Positions 23,722 to 30,158 of a stretch of DNA of 64,000 bases are shown here, one piece after another (position 1 is the first letter of the stretch; every line of letters begins with the position of its first letter). Under the pieces are notes generated by a model. The model made no database searches, was not told the origin of the DNA, and saw only the letters and a list, made by a program, of their open reading frames with translations. The position numbers and the translations under genes were made by a program. The stretch is from Demequina sp. NBRC 110057 (GTDB lineage Bacteria; Actinomycetota; Actinomycetes; Actinomycetales; Demequinaceae): contig NZ_BBRN01000005.1 of assembly GCF_002090175.1 (NCBI RefSeq), forward strand, positions 1 through 64,000, written 5' to 3'.

Positions 23722-24507
23722 CTACGCGTCGCGCTTGCCCATGGCGACCGAGGCCGTGATGCAGGCGCCGACCGCCCACGCAAGGGTGACGATCGAGCCC
23801 AATGCCGGGCCAATGTCCTCCGGGCTGATCCCGAACGAGCCCGAGCCGATCACGGCATCGCCCGCCCCGCTGGGGAGGTAGGCGGTGATGTTGCCGAGCC
23901 AGTCGAGCCCGAAGAGGCTCGCGAACGGGAGCACGATCAGCAGGCCGATGACCGTGGTCACGGCGATGCCGCTCGACTTCACGAGCGCGCCGATGCCGAC
24001 GGCCATGATCGATGTGGCGATGCACACCGCGGGAACGCCGAACAGGATCTGCCAGGTGTGGCCCACCGTCCAATCGACCACGGCGCCGTCGTCCCCGTAC
24101 TGCACGAGGATGATGACGAGCGAGACGGCGAGCACGAGGATCGACACGATTCCCGTGTAGATCGCGGCCGCGGTCGCCTTTGCGGCGAGCCAGAGGTTCC
24201 TGCGCGGCACCACGGAGAACGACACGCGGTACATGCCGGAGCTCCACTCGCCGGTGGCGAGCAGCGCAGAGTAGACGGACAGGATCACCCAGGGCATCAG
24301 CACGCCCTTGGCCGCGGTGACGACGGTCCACTCGGCTTCGATGCCGGCCTCCGGGGGCGCGTAACCGCCGGTGGCGACGATGAGGACCGCGAGGCCGATG
24401 GCCGCGATGGCGATCCACCACATGCCGCGCATGGTCGTGATCTTGAGCAGTTCGGCGCGCACGGCGCCGCCAAAGGTGAGACGGTTCTGCGCAACGACGG
24501 TGGTCAC
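23722..24507 (-). CDS. ABC-2 type exporter permease
   Basis: Six-helix membrane protein, 261 residues, of the ABC-2/BcrB class: N-terminal cytoplasmic RAELLKITTMRGMWW, then hydrophobic segments at about 30-50, 65-90, 110-135, 150-175, 180-205 and 230-255. Pairs with the ATPase directly upstream (4-base overlap). Last gene of the CPBP/LAETG cluster. Such pairs export or defend against peptides and lipophilic drugs. Confidence 0.85.
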   Translation of the reverse strand: MTTVVAQNRLTFGGAVRAELLKITTMRGMWWIAIAAIGLAVLIVATGGYAPPEAGIEAEWTVVTAAKGVLMPWVILSVYSALLATGEWSSGMYRVSFSVVPRRNLWLAAKATAAAIYTGIVSILVLAVSLVIILVQYGDDGAVVDWTVGHTWQILFGVPAVCIATSIMAVGIGALVKSSGIAVTTVIGLLIVLPFASLFGLDWLGNITAYLPSGAGDAVIGSGSFGISPEDIGPALGSIVTLAWAVGACITASVAMGKRDA

Positions 24508-25424
24508 TTGACCGCTCCTTCCGGGGTTCCGGCCTGGTATTCGACGGCATCGGCCGTGAGACGGAGGTACGCCTCCTCGAGGGTGGCGTTGCTCTTGACG
24601 AGTTCGTTCAGCGCCAATCCGGAACCGACGGCGAGCTCCGCGATGCGGGGCGGCTCGAGCCCGTTGACCACGACGGCATCGGTGGTGCGAGTGACCTCGG
24701 CACCCTCGGCTGCGACGATCGCCGCGAGCCTGTCATCGTCCGAGGTCTTGACCGTCACGGCGCCGGTGGCGGCCTGAGCGGTGAAGTCGGCGACGGAGCC
24801 CTGGGCGAGGATCTTGCCGCGGCCGATGACCACCACACGATCCGCGGTCAGCTGCACCTCGCTCATGAGGTGGCTGGACAGCAGCACCGTGCGCCCCTCG
24901 GCGGCGAACTGCCTCGCCAGGTTGCGTACCCAAAGGACGCCGTCGGGGTCGAGGCCGTTGACGGGCTCGTCCATGATCAGCGTCGCGGGATCTCCCAGCA
25001 GCGCCGTGGCGATGCCGAGGCGCTGCCCCATGCCGAGCGAGAAGCCCTTGACGCGCTTCTTGGCCACCTGGTCGAGGCCGGTCATCTGGATGACCTCGTC
25101 GACCCGCTTACGGCCGATGCCGTGGGTGGCGGCGAGCACTCGCAGGTGGTTGCGGGCGGTGCGGCCAGGGGTGACGGACTTGGCCTCGAGAAGCGCGCCC
25201 ACCACGTGCATCGGGGCGGCGTGGGAAGCGAGAGGCTTGCCATCGACGGTCGCCGTTCCGGCATCGGGCCTATCCAGGCCCATGATCATGCGCATGGTCG
25301 TGGACTTTCCCGCGCCATTGGGACCCAGGAAGCCCGTCACCGACCCCGCCGGCGCCGTGAACGAGATGTCGTCCACCGCCCGCTTGGGCCCGTAGGTCTT
25401 GGTGAGATTGGCGACCTCGATCAC
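24504..25424 (-). CDS. ABC-2 exporter ATPase (BcrA/CcmA class)
   Basis: 306 residues. Walker A GPNGAGKST near residue 37, signature FSLGMGQRLGIA, Walker B TLIMDEPVNGLDP, switch His in SSHLMSEV, then a C-terminal DUF4162-like extension of about 80 residues common in drug and peptide exporters. The GTG start overlaps the stop of the CPBP gene (GTGA) and the gene overlaps the permease by 4 bases, so the three are translationally coupled. Confidence 0.92.
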   Translation of the reverse strand: MIEVANLTKTYGPKRAVDDISFTAPAGSVTGFLGPNGAGKSTTMRMIMGLDRPDAGTATVDGKPLASHAAPMHVVGALLEAKSVTPGRTARNHLRVLAATHGIGRKRVDEVIQMTGLDQVAKKRVKGFSLGMGQRLGIATALLGDPATLIMDEPVNGLDPDGVLWVRNLARQFAAEGRTVLLSSHLMSEVQLTADRVVVIGRGKILAQGSVADFTAQAATGAVTVKTSDDDRLAAIVAAEGAEVTRTTDAVVVNGLEPPRIAELAVGSGLALNELVKSNATLEEAYLRLTADAVEYQAGTPEGAVK

Positions 25425-26263
25425 GACGGTTCTCCCTCGTAGATGTTGGTGGGCAAACTAGCAGGACGGGCCTGTGACCGGTAGGGGTCCGCCGTCAGCT
25501 TCCAGGCCGCGATGAGCGACACGAGGCCCACGATCACGATGAGGTCCGAGTGGGCCCCGAAGGCCGGGGCCTTGCCCTGCACGAAGGTCATGAAGTCCCA
25601 GGCACCGTGCAACAGCATCGGCAGTACGAGAGTGCCGCTGAGGCGGCGAGCCACGTAGAAGATTGACCCCGATAGCCCCGCCGTGATCACCTGCACCGCG
25701 CCGATGGCCGGAGCTCCGAGCGCCAGATTGACGATGTGGAAGGCCCCGAACATCAGGCTGGTGAGCAGCCAGACCGAGCGCTCGCCGAGGCGAGCACGAA
25801 GCCCGGTGAGGAGCACTCCCCTGGCCATCATCTCCTCCGCGAATCCCACCAGGACTCCGAGGATGATGGCGGTGAGCAGGAACTCGGGAGCGATGGCGGA
25901 GTAGTCGGTGGCGATGAGCCCGAGGGCCGTCAGCGCGATCATGGCGATCGGCACGATCCAGGCCCACGCGAGCCGTGCCCGCGAGCGGTCGAAGAGCACC
26001 GGCTTCCACCAGCCGAGCAGCCCCGTCAGGAGCGCCATGAGGACGCCGCCGGCGACGAGGGAAACGTCGGCCGCTCGCCAGAGGTTTGCGGCGGTGTTGC
26101 CCCATTCGGGGTACGGGATTGCGGCGTGCTTTTGGACGACGAAGACGAGGCCCGAGTAGAGGAGCCAGGCGGTGACACCGATCCAGGCCTGCGGCGCGAC
26201 GCGCAGGATGGAACGGGCGGTGGCCCCGCTCGCGAGGCGAGCGGGGCCGGTGGTCGTGGTCAT
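25421..26263 (-). CDS. CPBP-family intramembrane metalloprotease (second copy)
   Basis: 280 residues with about eight hydrophobic segments. Conserved CPBP (CAAX protease/Abi) motifs are all present: EEMMARG (EExxxR) around residue 148, FGAFH near 180 and HGAWDF near 225. Glu and His residues of these motifs form the metal site in characterised members. ATG 26263 overlaps the stop of the LAETG protein gene (ATGA), so the protease and the surface protein are coupled; AAGG nine bases upstream lies inside that gene. Members act in prenyl-protein processing, bacteriocin maturation or immunity; the target here is unknown. Confidence 0.87.
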   Translation of the reverse strand: MTTTTGPARLASGATARSILRVAPQAWIGVTAWLLYSGLVFVVQKHAAIPYPEWGNTAANLWRAADVSLVAGGVLMALLTGLLGWWKPVLFDRSRARLAWAWIVPIAMIALTALGLIATDYSAIAPEFLLTAIILGVLVGFAEEMMARGVLLTGLRARLGERSVWLLTSLMFGAFHIVNLALGAPAIGAVQVITAGLSGSIFYVARRLSGTLVLPMLLHGAWDFMTFVQGKAPAFGAHSDLIVIVGLVSLIAAWKLTADPYRSQARPASLPTNIYEGEPS

Positions 26264-27360
26264 GACCGGACCTTCGGGCGGGTGAGGCCGATCGCGAGCG
26301 ATCCGAGGCCGATGCCGGCGGCACCGATCGCGGCGAGCTCCCACGTCCAGCTGGCGACGCCGGTCTCGGCGAGGCCCGATGCGTCGGTCGCCTTCGCGGT
26401 GACCGGGGCCGCGGCGGGGGCGGTCTTGGTGGCCTCGGCGACGGCAGCGGGCAGCGTCACCTTGGTGACGTGCGCGGTGGTCGTGGCGGGGGTAGCCGCG
26501 GGCCCGGTGGCGTCGGGGTCAGTGTCGGGAAGCACGATGTCGGGCACCTTGTCGCCGTCGTTGTTCGCCTCAACGGTGAGCGGCACGGGAGTGCCCTGGG
26601 GCAGCAGGGGAGGCGCGGTGAGCGCTGCGACGATGTCCTCGTCCGCAGGGATCTGCAGCTCCGAGAGGAACGTCGGGCTCAACTGCGGCGCATCCACCGG
26701 AGTGCCCTGCGGACGCGCGGCCGGAACCGCATCGGTCGCCACCAGCTGAGGATCCGCGGGAACCGTCACCTCGGAACCAATCTCGGGCTTCAGTTGCGGC
26801 GCATCCACCGGAGTGGCCTGGGGACGCGCGGTCGGGACCGCATCGGTCGTCACCAATTGCGGGTCCGCAGGAGTGGCCTGGGGGCGCGGCGTGGGCCGGT
26901 CCTGAGGCAGCACCGGGTACGTGTCCTCCGAGCCCACCTCACGGTTCACCAGCGGGGTGCCCCCCGGAGTGGCCTGGGGCCGCGCGGTCGGCACGGCATC
27001 GGTCGCTACCAACTGCGGGTCCGCGGGCACGGTCACCTCGGACAGGAAAGTCGGGCTCACCAGGTCTGTGCCGGTCGGAACGGCCTGCGGGCGGGGGCTC
27101 GGGACCGTGACGTCCTGGGTGCGCGATGCGAGATCCTTCAGCGCGAGGAACTCGGGCCGAATCTGGCGGATCGCCTCCGGCGAGGGCGAGGGCGAGGCCG
27201 AGGGCTCGGCGCTCGGCGCGGCCGTAGCGTCAGAAGTCTGGTCGCAGTCGCGGCCAAGCGGTCCGGAGGCGAACGCAGCCTGGGGGGCGAGGACGAGTCC
27301 GACGGCGATTCCGGCGGCGGCGAGGCCGCCAGCGACGCGGCGGGGGTGAATGGCGGACAT
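26260..27360 (-). CDS. LAETG-anchored proline-rich repeat surface protein
   Basis: 366 residues. Signal peptide 1-31 with AFA/S cleavage, a Ser/Pro/Ala linker to about 62, then a repeat region at 83-260 in which a roughly 37-residue unit recurs (clear copies at 109-145 and 198-234, a longer variant at 146-197, partial ones at both ends). Each unit carries DPQLV-T-DAVP, then RPQ-TP, and ends in SE. A sortase signal follows: LAETG at 330-334, a hydrophobic stretch and the basic tail RPKVRS. LAxTG is the form used by class E sortases of high-GC actinobacteria. ATG 27360 has GAAGGAG eight bases upstream. I know no family for the repeats. It sits between two CPBP protease genes. Confidence 0.88.
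   Translation of the reverse strand: MSAIHPRRVAGGLAAAGIAVGLVLAPQAAFASGPLGRDCDQTSDATAAPSAEPSASPSPSPEAIRQIRPEFLALKDLASRTQDVTVPSPRPQAVPTGTDLVSPTFLSEVTVPADPQLVATDAVPTARPQATPGGTPLVNREVGSEDTYPVLPQDRPTPRPQATPADPQLVTTDAVPTARPQATPVDAPQLKPEIGSEVTVPADPQLVATDAVPAARPQGTPVDAPQLSPTFLSELQIPADEDIVAALTAPPLLPQGTPVPLTVEANNDGDKVPDIVLPDTDPDATGPAATPATTTAHVTKVTLPAAVAEATKTAPAAAPVTAKATDASGLAETGVASWTWELAAIGAAGIGLGSLAIGLTRPKVRS
26583..27114 (-). repeat. In-gene tandem repeats of the LAETG protein
   Basis: DNA encoding the imperfect 26-52 residue units described for the surface protein. The related units are similar at the nucleotide level, e.g. the stretch encoding ADPQLVATDAVP is nearly the same in the copies near 27027 and 26760. 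Such repeats can change copy number by slippage or recombination. Confidence 0.75.
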
Positions 27361-27463
27361 GGTGTTCTCCTTCAGAGGGGTACTGCGTGGGGTGGGGGTT
27401 CGCCCCTCGTGCGAGGGACGAGGTCGTGAGGGCCGCCCCGCCATTGCGACGGACCTCACGGGC

Positions 27464-28234
27464 TTAGAGGGCTGCGGGAAGGACCATCGCGACCGAGAAC
27501 ATTGCCCAGTCGTTGACGATGTGTGCTCCGGTCGAGACCCAGATGTTGCGGGTGACCACGTAGGCGAGGGTGAGGAACACCCTGGCGAGGCCGATGTAGA
27601 GCAGGCACTGCAGGACGTTCCAGCCGTAGGTCGGCAGGTGCAGCAGCCCGAACATCACGGCGGTGGCGCCCCAGGCGAGAGCGAGGGCCGCGGTGCGGTT
27701 CCAGCGGAACCGGCGCACCAGGACCGACAGCAGCGCGAGCAGCGGCAGGATGGTGATGAGTTCCTCGCCCAGCAACTGCGGAATCGTTGCGGCGAAGAAG
27801 TTGAGACGCTCACCGAGGCTGGCGTCCGCGAGCAGGTCACCGGAGGGGTTGGCGTTGCCCCCGATCACACCGTTGAGCGCCGACGCGACTGTGAAGGTCA
27901 CGGTGAGGTTCAGGACGCCGAACCCGACCATCTGCAGCACCTGGCGCAGGCGCACGCTGCGGAAGATCTGGGTCCATCCGCTCGGCGCCGCCCAGGCGAG
28001 GGCGAGGAGCGGAATCAGCGGGAACAGGATCGCGTGGGTCCACTGCTGGACCGCGGCGCCACCCGGGATGGGAAGCAGGACCAGCTGGGCGAAGGACACG
28101 GCGCAGGCCGCGACCACGACGAGCCAGCGGGCTCCGGAGATCGCTCCGGGACCGTCGTACAGCGGCAGGTCGGGCTTGGTGGGACGGTTCTCCGCGCTGG
28201 CGGGGAAGGGCTTGGCCACGGGGTTGGCGCTCAT
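27464..28234 (-). CDS. CPBP-family membrane protein (first copy)
   Basis: 256 residues, about seven to eight hydrophobic segments. CPBP motifs are present but not all canonical: GEELITI keeps the two glutamates while the Arg of EExxxR is replaced by Ile; FGLLHLPTYGWN and the C-terminal HIVNDW are conserved. The changed motif could mean altered specificity or a non-proteolytic role. It precedes the LAETG gene by 103 bases and follows the response regulator by 107 bases, a gap that holds a 16-bp perfect palindrome. A good AGGAG lies before the ATG. Confidence 0.83.
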   Translation of the reverse strand: MSANPVAKPFPASAENRPTKPDLPLYDGPGAISGARWLVVVAACAVSFAQLVLLPIPGGAAVQQWTHAILFPLIPLLALAWAAPSGWTQIFRSVRLRQVLQMVGFGVLNLTVTFTVASALNGVIGGNANPSGDLLADASLGERLNFFAATIPQLLGEELITILPLLALLSVLVRRFRWNRTAALALAWGATAVMFGLLHLPTYGWNVLQCLLYIGLARVFLTLAYVVTRNIWVSTGAHIVNDWAMFSVAMVLPAAL

Positions 28235-28314
28235 GTCATCTCCTCAATTGGTGATGACTCAAGTCTTGTGAAACGGCCCCCGCCGCACATCGTCCAGCCG
28301 CAGACACTTGCGCG

Positions 28315-28330
28315 TACTGCGATCGCAGTA
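28315..28330. promoter_or_regulatory. 16-bp perfect palindrome upstream of the CPBP/LAETG operon
   Basis: TACTGCGATCGCAGTA, perfectly self-complementary, 81-96 bases before the first CPBP start and 12 bases past the response-regulator stop. Size and symmetry suit a dimeric LuxR/NarL-type regulator such as the one next door. It could also form a weak hairpin. Confidence 0.5.
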
Positions 28331-28341
28331 GGCGCGCTCCC

Positions 28342-29007
28342 CTACCCCTCGTTCCCGGCGAGTCCTGCCTGGTAGGCGGCCACCACGAGCTGGGCTCGGT
28401 CCCGCGCGCCGACCTTCATCATGGCGCGGTTCACGTGCGTCTTTGCGGTCAGCGGGCTCACGAACAGGCGCGCGGCGATGTCCTCGTTGCTGAGGCCCTG
28501 CGCCACCAACAGCACCACCTCGCGCTCGCGCTCCGTCAGGTGGCGGAACACGTCCGATGCCACCGAGGGCTGCGCACGTTCCCGCGACACGTGGGAGATC
28601 ACGGCCTTGGTCGCAGCGGGAGACAGCAGCTCCTCCCCCGCCGCCACGGTCCGCACCGCGTCCAACAGGGCTCCCGGCCTCACGCTCTTGCCCAGGAATC
28701 CACTCGCCCCACCGCGCAGGGCCCGCAGCACGTACTCGTCCTCCTCGAACGTGGTGAGCACAATCACGCGGACATCGGACAGATCGGGATCGGCGGCGAT
28801 CTGCTCCGTCGCGTCCAGCCCATCCATGCCGGGCATGCGGATGTCCATGAGCACCACGTCGGGCCGGCTGGCGCGCACGAGGTCGAGCGCGGCGGCGCCG
28901 TCGGCCGCCTCTCCCACCACCTCGATGTCGTCCGCGGTGCCCAGAATCGCGACGAAGCCGCCGCGGATGAGGTCCTGGTCGTCGACGACCGCGACACGAA
29001 GCGTCAT
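28342..29007 (-). CDS. NarL/LuxR-type response regulator
   Basis: 221 residues. Receiver domain with acidic pair Asp9-Asp10, phosphoacceptor Asp55 in LMDIRMPG, Thr in VLTTF and Lys in FLGKSV near 105; LuxR-type helix-turn-helix at about 152-212 (LTEREREVVLLVAQGLSNEDIA). Its start overlaps the sensor kinase stop (ATGA). It most likely controls the CPBP/LAETG/ABC genes directly downstream, perhaps through the palindrome at 28315-28330. Confidence 0.93.
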   Translation of the reverse strand: MTLRVAVVDDQDLIRGGFVAILGTADDIEVVGEAADGAAALDLVRASRPDVVLMDIRMPGMDGLDATEQIAADPDLSDVRVIVLTTFEEDEYVLRALRGGASGFLGKSVRPGALLDAVRTVAAGEELLSPAATKAVISHVSRERAQPSVASDVFRHLTEREREVVLLVAQGLSNEDIAARLFVSPLTAKTHVNRAMMKVGARDRAQLVVAAYQAGLAGNEG

Positions 29008-30158
29008 CTACTTCCCCCTTCTCGCAGCGGCAACGAGGCTCGCACCACGAACTCGTCTCCCTCGCGCGCGGCGCTCACGGTACCGCCCGCGGCGGAGGCC
29101 CGCTCGCTCATGCCCAGCAGCCCGAACCCCGACGGGGCGGCATCACCGGCATGGCCGATGCGGTTGCGTACCTCGAGCTCCAGGCTCGCCGCGGCGGCCC
29201 CCACGGTCACGGTTGCGGTGCCGTCGCCGTGCTTGCGTGCGTTCGTCAGCGCCTCCTGGACGATGCGGTAGGCGCCGTGGTCGGCTGCCGCGGGGAGGTC
29301 CGTGGGGACGGCGTCCGCGCTCACCTCGACGGCGAGGCCGGCCGCCCGCGCCTCTTCGACAAGGGCGTCGAGTTCGCCGATCCCCTGCGTGGGCCGCACG
29401 TCGTCCTCGTCCTGACGCAGGACACGAAGCATCACCGGCAACTCCTCGAGCACGCGGGCGCCGGAGTCCTGCACGAGTGCCAGGGCATCGGCAGCGCGCC
29501 TCGGGTCACTCTCCAGCAGTGCCTCCGCCACCCCCGCCTGCACGTTCATGACGGCGACGTGATGCCCCACCGCGTCATGAAGTTCGCGGGCGATGCGCAG
29601 CCGCTCCTCTGCCACGCGGGAGCGCGCCATTGCGTCGCGCGTCTCCTCGGCCTGACGCGTGCGCTCGCGTTCCTGCGCCACGGACCGTCGGTACAGGCTG
29701 ACAGCGATGCCCACGGCGGTGACGAGCGCCATCCAGATCTCGGCGGACACCACGACGGAGTCCGTCGGGCCGCGCGAGCCATCGGCCACCAGCGTTCCAC
29801 CGGCGACCACGACTGCGAGGGCTCCGATCGCGAGCGCCACTGACACGTGGGCGACCCGCGACACTGCCGTGTACAGGGCGACGACGGCGGGGATGAGCGC
29901 CGCCGAGATCTCGCCGGACGCCAGGGTGGCGACCACGAAGATCGCTGCGGTGACCAGGAGCACCGGCACCGGCCAGGTCCGCCGCCACACCAGGGCCGCA
30001 CACGCAATAAAGGTCACGGCCACGTCGACCCAGCCCTGGGCATCGGGCGCACCGTCGACCACCGCGATCACCAGGATCGCCGCGGCCAACAAGGCGGCAC
30101 CCACCGCGTCCCTGCCGCGCTCGGAGGCCGGCAATGGCAGGCGGCGCGAGGAGGTCAT
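29004..30158 (-). CDS. Sensor histidine kinase, NarL partner type
   Basis: 384 residues. Four to five N-terminal membrane segments (about 18-36, 45-60, 64-80, 85-125, 138-156), a short coiled linker, HisKA_3 domain with phosphoacceptor His194 in ARELHDAVGHH and a HATPase_c domain ending in GFGLLGMSERA. There is no sizeable extracellular domain, so the signal is probably sensed in the membrane, as in many cell-envelope-stress kinases. ATG 30158 is supported by a TAGGTT -10 box seven bases upstream (leaderless); a TTG nine bases earlier is less likely. Confidence 0.92.
   Translation of the reverse strand: MTSSRRLPLPASERGRDAVGAALLAAAILVIAVVDGAPDAQGWVDVAVTFIACAALVWRRTWPVPVLLVTAAIFVVATLASGEISAALIPAVVALYTAVSRVAHVSVALAIGALAVVVAGGTLVADGSRGPTDSVVVSAEIWMALVTAVGIAVSLYRRSVAQERERTRQAEETRDAMARSRVAEERLRIARELHDAVGHHVAVMNVQAGVAEALLESDPRRAADALALVQDSGARVLEELPVMLRVLRQDEDDVRPTQGIGELDALVEEARAAGLAVEVSADAVPTDLPAAADHGAYRIVQEALTNARKHGDGTATVTVGAAAASLELEVRNRIGHAGDAAPSGFGLLGMSERASAAGGTVSAAREGDEFVVRASLPLREGGSR

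Follow-up and report, generated by a model that had tools for sequence, protein, structure and literature searches.

The locus studied here lies in a window of 64,000 nucleotides, the whole stretch of Demequina sp. NBRC 110057 DNA that was analysed, and holds seven genes and a predicted operator (Table 1). An initial annotation had described the seven genes as running in one direction, with a 4-base overlap at each junction from the LAETG gene onward. Gene order, coordinates and overlaps are all as it claimed, every gene being on the minus strand. The kinase and regulator genes overlap by 4 bases as well, and intergenic gaps of 107 bp and 103 bp separate the regulator from CPBP1 and CPBP1 from the LAETG gene, which starts with an ATG at 27360 preceded by GGAG. 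In a profile search, the families nearest to the ABC ATPase are the lantibiotic-protection, GldA and DrrA types. No bacteriocin-like precursor gene was seen among the open reading frames of at least 80 amino acids. A scan for sigma-70 promoters and terminators gave no match, as may be expected in an actinobacterium of 70% GC.

Table 1. Genes and predicted regulatory features of the cluster, in order of transcription (positions within the window).
Feature	Positions	Strand	Basis or remarks
Sensor histidine kinase (DUF7134 membrane part, HisKA_3, HATPase)	29004-30158	-	No large outer domain
NarL/LuxR-type response regulator (Response_reg + GerE)	28342-29007	-	Family profile matches
Predicted operator, 16-bp palindrome TACTGCGATCGCAGTA	28315-28330	No strand	Pattern search
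Operator and conserved promoter region	28257-28333	-	Model R1 match, E 1.8e-20
CPBP1, PF02517 protein, distinct subfamily	27464-28234	-	GEExxTxLP, HLPTYxWN, HxxxDW
Secreted proline-rich repeat protein, LAETG + membrane helix + basic tail	26260-27360	-	Inspection, repeats
CPBP2, canonical CPBP protease motifs EExxxR/FxxxH/HxxxD	25421-26263	-	Pfam profile, motifs
ABC exporter ATPase (lantibiotic-protection/DrrA-like, ABC_tran)	24504-25424	-	Family profiles
ABC-2 type permease	23722-24507	-	Weak, sub-threshold PF12730 (ABC2_membrane_4) match

Both CPBP proteins exceed the curated PF02517 cut-off of 22.4 bits in Pfam (CPBP1: 40.6 bits, E 3e-10; CPBP2: 59.7 bits, E 3e-16). Motif 2 (FxxxH) and motif 4 (HxxxN/D, with D as the last position) are present in both. 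Motif 1 is intact in CPBP2 (EExxxR); in CPBP1 it reads EExxxI instead, with a hydrophobic residue at the arginine position in all 14 aligned members. EExxxI and FxxxH/HxxxD are invariant in 12 CPBP1 orthologues, and every aligned member keeps both glutamates and both histidines. This subfamily, with its signatures GEExxTxLP, F-x-x-x-HLPTY-x-WN and HxxxDW, also occurs in other Actinomycetota, Proteobacteria and Enterococcus. A good AlphaFold model of CPBP1 (pLDDT 84.5) gave no significant match of any kind to the PDB with Foldseek, and sequence searches of the PDB were empty for both proteins. Against the NCBIfam Mrt models, CPBP2 reached 15-20 bits where the cut-offs are 75-130, and CPBP1 had no match.

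The gap between regulator and CPBP1 contains TACTGCGATCGCAGTA, a perfect palindrome without a second exact match in the 2.73-Mb genome. The corresponding pattern, TACYGCGNNCGYRGTA, has one location in the same genome, the reversed control pattern none. Across the genus, the palindrome precedes CPBP1 at the same position in 12 of 12 loci, in somewhat degenerate form in three of them; two CPBP1 loci with no adjoining kinase-regulator pair still carry it. We infer from this conservation that it is the binding site of the response regulator. Further matches in the genus stand before repeat-protein genes (G015, G010 and G025) and before a gene for a small secreted protein (G008, G019 and G024), and exact palindromes lie upstream of homologues of the ABC ATPase in G006 and G008 (57-58% identity). 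Those in G003, G006:C16 and G019:C12 look like chance.

The surroundings of the palindrome were captured in a 78-bp model, R1, built solely from the 12 promoters that precede CPBP1 in the genus and searched against 44 genomes; its strong matches run down to an E-value of about 1e-5. In the genome of origin, the sole strong match is the CPBP1 promoter. Elsewhere, R1 sites precede QxTP-repeat genes in G015 (1e-18), G010 (2e-15), G043 (2e-11) and G029 (4e-11), with a weak match (1e-5) before the repeat-protein gene of G025; in these five genomes the repeat-protein sites are located far from CPBP1. G043, which is without CPBP1, has an R1 site downstream of its regulator as well, and G015 retains its sites in the absence of the regulator. 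Eight genomes (G006, G042, G024, G019, G008, G014, G010 and G015) have R1 sites before the small secreted protein. The extended model gave no match at the sites before the ABC genes in G006 and G008; since these sites fit the palindrome pattern and not R1, the link of the exporter to the operator is weaker. Related promoters are alike beyond the palindrome, so that shared promoter ancestry may contribute to the R1 matches. At CPBP1-family loci outside Demequina the site was not found.

The LAETG protein has no family match in Pfam or NCBIfam. Inspection of its sequence reveals a signal peptide and an LxxTG motif followed by a helix and a basic tail, and its gene carries five copies of a 47-nt unit and three of a 126-nt unit. 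The motif Q[AG][TV]P occurs six times in the protein, against 0.14 in shuffles. It is enriched (shuffles, p<0.01) in eight of nine regulon surface proteins tested; for the ninth, from G029, significance is reached only when the motif is slightly broadened. Tails of the family members adjoining CPBP1 read LAETG in the genome of origin, LAHTG in G030, LSHTG in G019 and G024, and LSFTG in G008; among other operator-linked proteins we find LASTG in G043 and LAYTG in G029, and the G025 repeat protein is without a membrane tail. No cysteine stands before the C-terminal helix, its place being taken by LAETG, LAHTG, LSHTG, LSFTG or LAYTG. An anchor-domain profile was not found for the LAETG protein, and its G043 homologue scores 23.6 bits against a cut-off of 27 (NF058582). 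The genome of origin encodes one class E sortase (237.6 bits, cut-off 160) and two of class F type, one above and one below the cut-off.

CPBP1 orthologues are present in 12 of the 44 Demequina genomes, the genome of origin included, and are 54-78% identical outside it. Regulator orthologues of at least 75% identity occur in 13, namely all 12 with CPBP1 and G043; the remaining 31 have none (Fisher p 6e-10, uncorrected for kinship). The loci sit in several differing chromosomal surroundings; carriage on plasmids was considered and dropped, only distant CPBP matches having been obtained. The kinase-regulator pair lies immediately 5' of CPBP1 in 10 of the 12 genomes, the kinase orthologues of these loci (own included) being 49-74% identical and directly before the regulator. 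In G042 and G006 the regulator is found on the same contig, about 14 kb and 9 kb from CPBP1, respectively. Immediately 3' of CPBP1 there is an LxxTG QxTP-repeat gene in five of 12 genomes (G000, G030, G019, G024 and G008) and a short secreted membrane protein without repeats in G042 and G006. No repeat protein under the operator was found in G014 or G038, which both have CPBP1. Altogether, among the 13 regulator genomes CPBP1 is present in 12, repeat wall proteins in nine and ABC linkage in four. G043 possesses kinase, regulator and operator-linked wall proteins in the absence of CPBP1, which is therefore not indispensable.

By adjacency alone, only the grouping of kinase, regulator and CPBP1 is supported, because CPBP2 and the exporter follow only here, with ABC genes also in G010. 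There, an ABC ATPase (61% identity) and a permease come directly after CPBP1, and 3-6 kb further on there is another ABC pair and also a CPBP2-like gene. The operator is more informative than the neighbourhood, as the pieces are often scattered in relatives yet keep the site. By the refuting condition that the initial annotation set, the LAETG-CPBP2-ABC adjacency does not hold up, the arrangement being unique to its own genome; unlinked targets in relatives nevertheless share the operator site.

Two other candidate associations did not withstand inspection. CPBP2 was examined as an ancestral partner, and the genus relatives inspected (34-41% identity) have no ABC or TCS neighbours. An LxxTG neighbour was considered as a general partner of the CPBP1 subfamily, with two cases outside Demequina: in G245 an LAITG protein is encoded between kinase-regulator and CPBP1, and in Enterococcus innesii a gene similar to CPBP1 has an LPKTG repeat protein nearby. 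Neither protein has the QxTP motif, and the seven further CPBP1 loci from the family to which G245 belongs have no LxxTG neighbour; we therefore regard the two cases as chance or as a separate story.

From the shared operator at unlinked targets, and from the co-occurrence of regulator and CPBP1, we conclude that the kinase, the regulator, CPBP1, the wall protein and, less firmly, the ABC exporter appear to form one regulon, which is gathered here in one cluster. The finding is real and extends beyond the coordinates of this cluster. The single functional set first proposed is right for the two-component system, CPBP1 and the LAETG protein and probable for the exporter. CPBP2, counted as a member in the same proposal, is not carried over: its membership is unproven, the evidence being the 4-base overlaps in this cluster and, in G010, a homologue of 34% identity at a distance of about 3 kb. 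Cleavage of the anchor by the proteases, repeat-peptide release, and immunity or bacteriocin export stay conjectural.

We now propose, with a probability of roughly 60%, a self-contained cell-envelope regulon in which CPBP1 serves as the feedback partner of the kinase. The kinase, having no large outer domain, would sense something in or near the membrane, presumably envelope stress, and phosphorylate the NarL-type regulator. The latter would bind TACTGCGATCGCAGTA and activate, rather than repress, CPBP1 and the proline-rich wall protein; the same cluster here additionally holds CPBP2 and the ABC-2 exporter. The wall protein may then be anchored through LAETG by the class E sortase. CPBP1, itself induced by the regulator, would act in the membrane as a partner of the kinase and feed back on it. 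The shared site suggests a dedicated envelope response.

Feedback on the kinase, by analogy with SpdC and Abx1, is the most likely role of CPBP1. We favour it because no other partner accompanies the two-component system as constantly as CPBP1, whose gene also stands behind the predicted operator of this system, a circuit like that of spdC under WalKR (PMC5854430). Abx1 acts on CovS without the Abx1 protease residues (PMC3578759); on this precedent, a kinase modulator would need no protease activity. The catalytic-type residues kept in CPBP1 would be expected of an enzyme and are not required of a pure modulator, a point that counts against feedback.

The main rival to feedback is that CPBP1 processes the wall protein, cutting its C-terminal anchor, or the stump that remains after sortase has acted, and thereby sorting or shedding the repeat protein, much as a myxosortase is paired with its own target. 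CPBP proteases with a single adjoining target bearing a C-terminal signal are known (MrtJ/JDVT-CTERM and MrtX, PMC11980579), and a QxTP-repeat LxxTG gene adjoins CPBP1 in five of 12 genomes, a short secreted membrane protein in two. The retained catalytic-type E/E/H/H/D residues also speak for it. However, regulon wall proteins occur without CPBP1 in G043 and G015, and G014 and G038 possess CPBP1 with no detectable wall target. Its motif-1 arginine is missing, and no MYXO-CTERM-like cysteine lies ahead of the membrane helix of the targets. These carry LxxTG signals and the genome has a class E sortase, so that a further sorting enzyme is not needed. We consider processing unlikely on balance.

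Also doubtful is a module for sensing and resisting antimicrobial peptides, of the LnrJKLMN/BceRS-like kind, in which the two-component system would induce the ABC-2 exporter, with accessory roles in envelope defence for the CPBP and wall proteins. The families nearest to the ATPase and the absence of a large outer domain in the kinase are consistent with it, as is the position of ABC genes, which in G010 belong to the CPBP1 operon and in G006 and G008 follow the palindrome. Against it, ABC linkage is seen in four of 13 regulator genomes, as opposed to nine for repeat wall proteins and 12 for CPBP1.

A further reading, which we hold to be rather improbable, is a surveillance loop: CPBP1 would recognise or cut LxxTG repeat proteins left unsorted in the membrane and signal their state to the kinase. 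If true, the cell would match the synthesis of wall proteins, their anchoring and export, and the HLPTY-type CPBP subfamily would stand as a new class of intramembrane proteins coupled to signalling. Finally, three unrelated transcripts (the two-component system, CPBP1 and LAETG-CPBP2-ABC) lying side by side by chance would agree with the 107- and 103-bp gaps and with a gene order found only here, but are very improbable, since chance neighbours would not be expected to have an operator that recurs at unlinked loci of repeat proteins and ABC genes, nor a regulator that occurs together with CPBP1.

All parts of this regulon are of known kinds, and we found no description of the combination in the literature searched. 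The statement of the initial annotation that it knew of no described system of this composition nevertheless needs a qualification, as links between CPBP/Abi proteins and histidine kinases are known for SpdC and Abx1 (PMC5854430, PMC3578759). No partner is known for the majority of CPBP proteins in bacteria, nor for the majority of two-component systems in actinobacteria. In 13 species of one genus, one predicted operator connects the kinase-regulator pair with a CPBP subfamily and with a family of LxxTG repeat proteins, and in some of these species also with an exporter. The regulon thus offers defined, testable targets.

Kinases without a large outer domain, NarL-type regulators and linked BcrA-type exporters make up the two-component-ABC modules of the LnrJKLMN, LiaFSR and EsrISR type. 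In the regulon, by contrast, the constant targets are the CPBP protein and LAxTG proline-rich proteins, with the ABC exporter occasional. As in class E sortase substrates of Actinomycetota, the C-terminal signal is of LAxTG type and the genome encodes a class E sortase; unlike these, the wall proteins have no domain matches, and what defines them is the QxTP repeat together with the shared operator. In the MrtX and MrtJ-JDVT-CTERM systems, too, a CPBP protein is the neighbour of a secreted protein that ends in a helix and a basic tail (PMC11980579). They differ in the cysteine before the helix of MYXO-CTERM and in the EExxxR of MrtX, where we see LxxTG and a CPBP1 lacking the motif-1 arginine.

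Abx1 of Streptococcus agalactiae is, like the proposed CPBP1, an Abi-domain modulator of a histidine kinase (PMC3578759), although its kinase, CovS, is a different one, and the accessible part of the report mentions no linked sortase substrate or ABC exporter. The closest parallel is SpdC/LyrA with WalKR in S. aureus, which also has SpdA and SpdB: a CPBP/Abi-fold membrane protein induced by a two-component system and affecting the levels of a sortase-anchored surface protein (PMC5854430). WalKR induces SpdC, which in turn inhibits WalK and has an effect on protein A (PMC5854430); SpdA-C are tied to the display of sortase-anchored proteins (PMC5854430, PMC3578759). SpdC interacts with its kinase (PMC5854430), whereas the tie between CPBP1 and its kinase consists of genetic linkage and a predicted operator. 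SpdC also acts on many kinases and lacks key catalytic residues (PMC7387801), and no operon shared between it and its targets is described. CPBP1, unlike SpdC, keeps E/E/H/H/D, belongs with one NarL-type two-component system and has its operator in common with a repeat wall protein. The regulon would carry the SpdC/Abx1 theme of a CPBP fold, kinases and surface display from Firmicutes to Actinomycetota, in a much simpler form.

The predicted operator, the palindrome that the NarL-type regulator probably binds, also precedes genes other than those of CPBP1 and the repeat wall proteins. In eight Demequina genomes it lies before the gene of a secreted protein of about 165 residues with the C-terminal end ICTExHGGxxLxF, which matched nothing in Pfam and NCBIfam searches; the window genome, in contrast, has no such protein behind the operator. 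A weak match (E 1.3e-4) stands before the gene of an 89-residue signal-peptide/membrane protein in Demequina G021, a genome where the regulator is absent, and the short proteins that G042 and G006 encode downstream of CPBP1 are similar to it. In G014, a putative HtrA-like serine protease with a PDZ domain, judged by eye from its sequence, replaces the wall protein downstream of CPBP1.

G043 carries two operator copies in one locus. The protein behind the first is similar to the N-terminal half of a 735-residue LASTG protein encoded there, which looks as if a cytoplasmic protein had been fused to a wall protein. In G245, from another family of the order, the gene of a LAITG protein with TPTPRPVLTPTPTATPTP repeats is placed between the kinase-regulator pair and CPBP1, in divergent orientation.

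Outside this order, the neighbour of the CPBP1-family gene repeatedly encodes a small secreted protein marked by the motif TCPGxxEVHADxGGPxYI (nine loci in alpha-, beta- and gammaproteobacteria), which may be a second conserved partner. In Enterococcus innesii, the gene of an LPKTG protein in which PALPEAPVEPxxxPTL recurs about ten times shares its direction with those of a CPBP1-family member, of an Rgg-like regulator and of two more CPBP proteins.

Positions of the genes and sites in the extracted loci
Feature	Locus	Positions
ICTExHGGxxLxF protein	L192	6460-7038
ICTExHGGxxLxF protein	L193	6552-7043
ICTExHGGxxLxF protein	L195	6750-7244
ICTExHGGxxLxF protein	L229, L230, L234, L235, L236	
Weak operator match, G021	L237	C17:204294
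Putative HtrA-like protease downstream of CPBP1, G014	L025	
Operator copies and LASTG protein, G043	L231	6704-11100
LAITG locus, G245	L135	8386-12164
TCPGxxEVHADxGGPxYI protein	L047, L049, L069, L083, L084, L088, L089, L090, L093	
E. innesii cluster	L094	4964-9940
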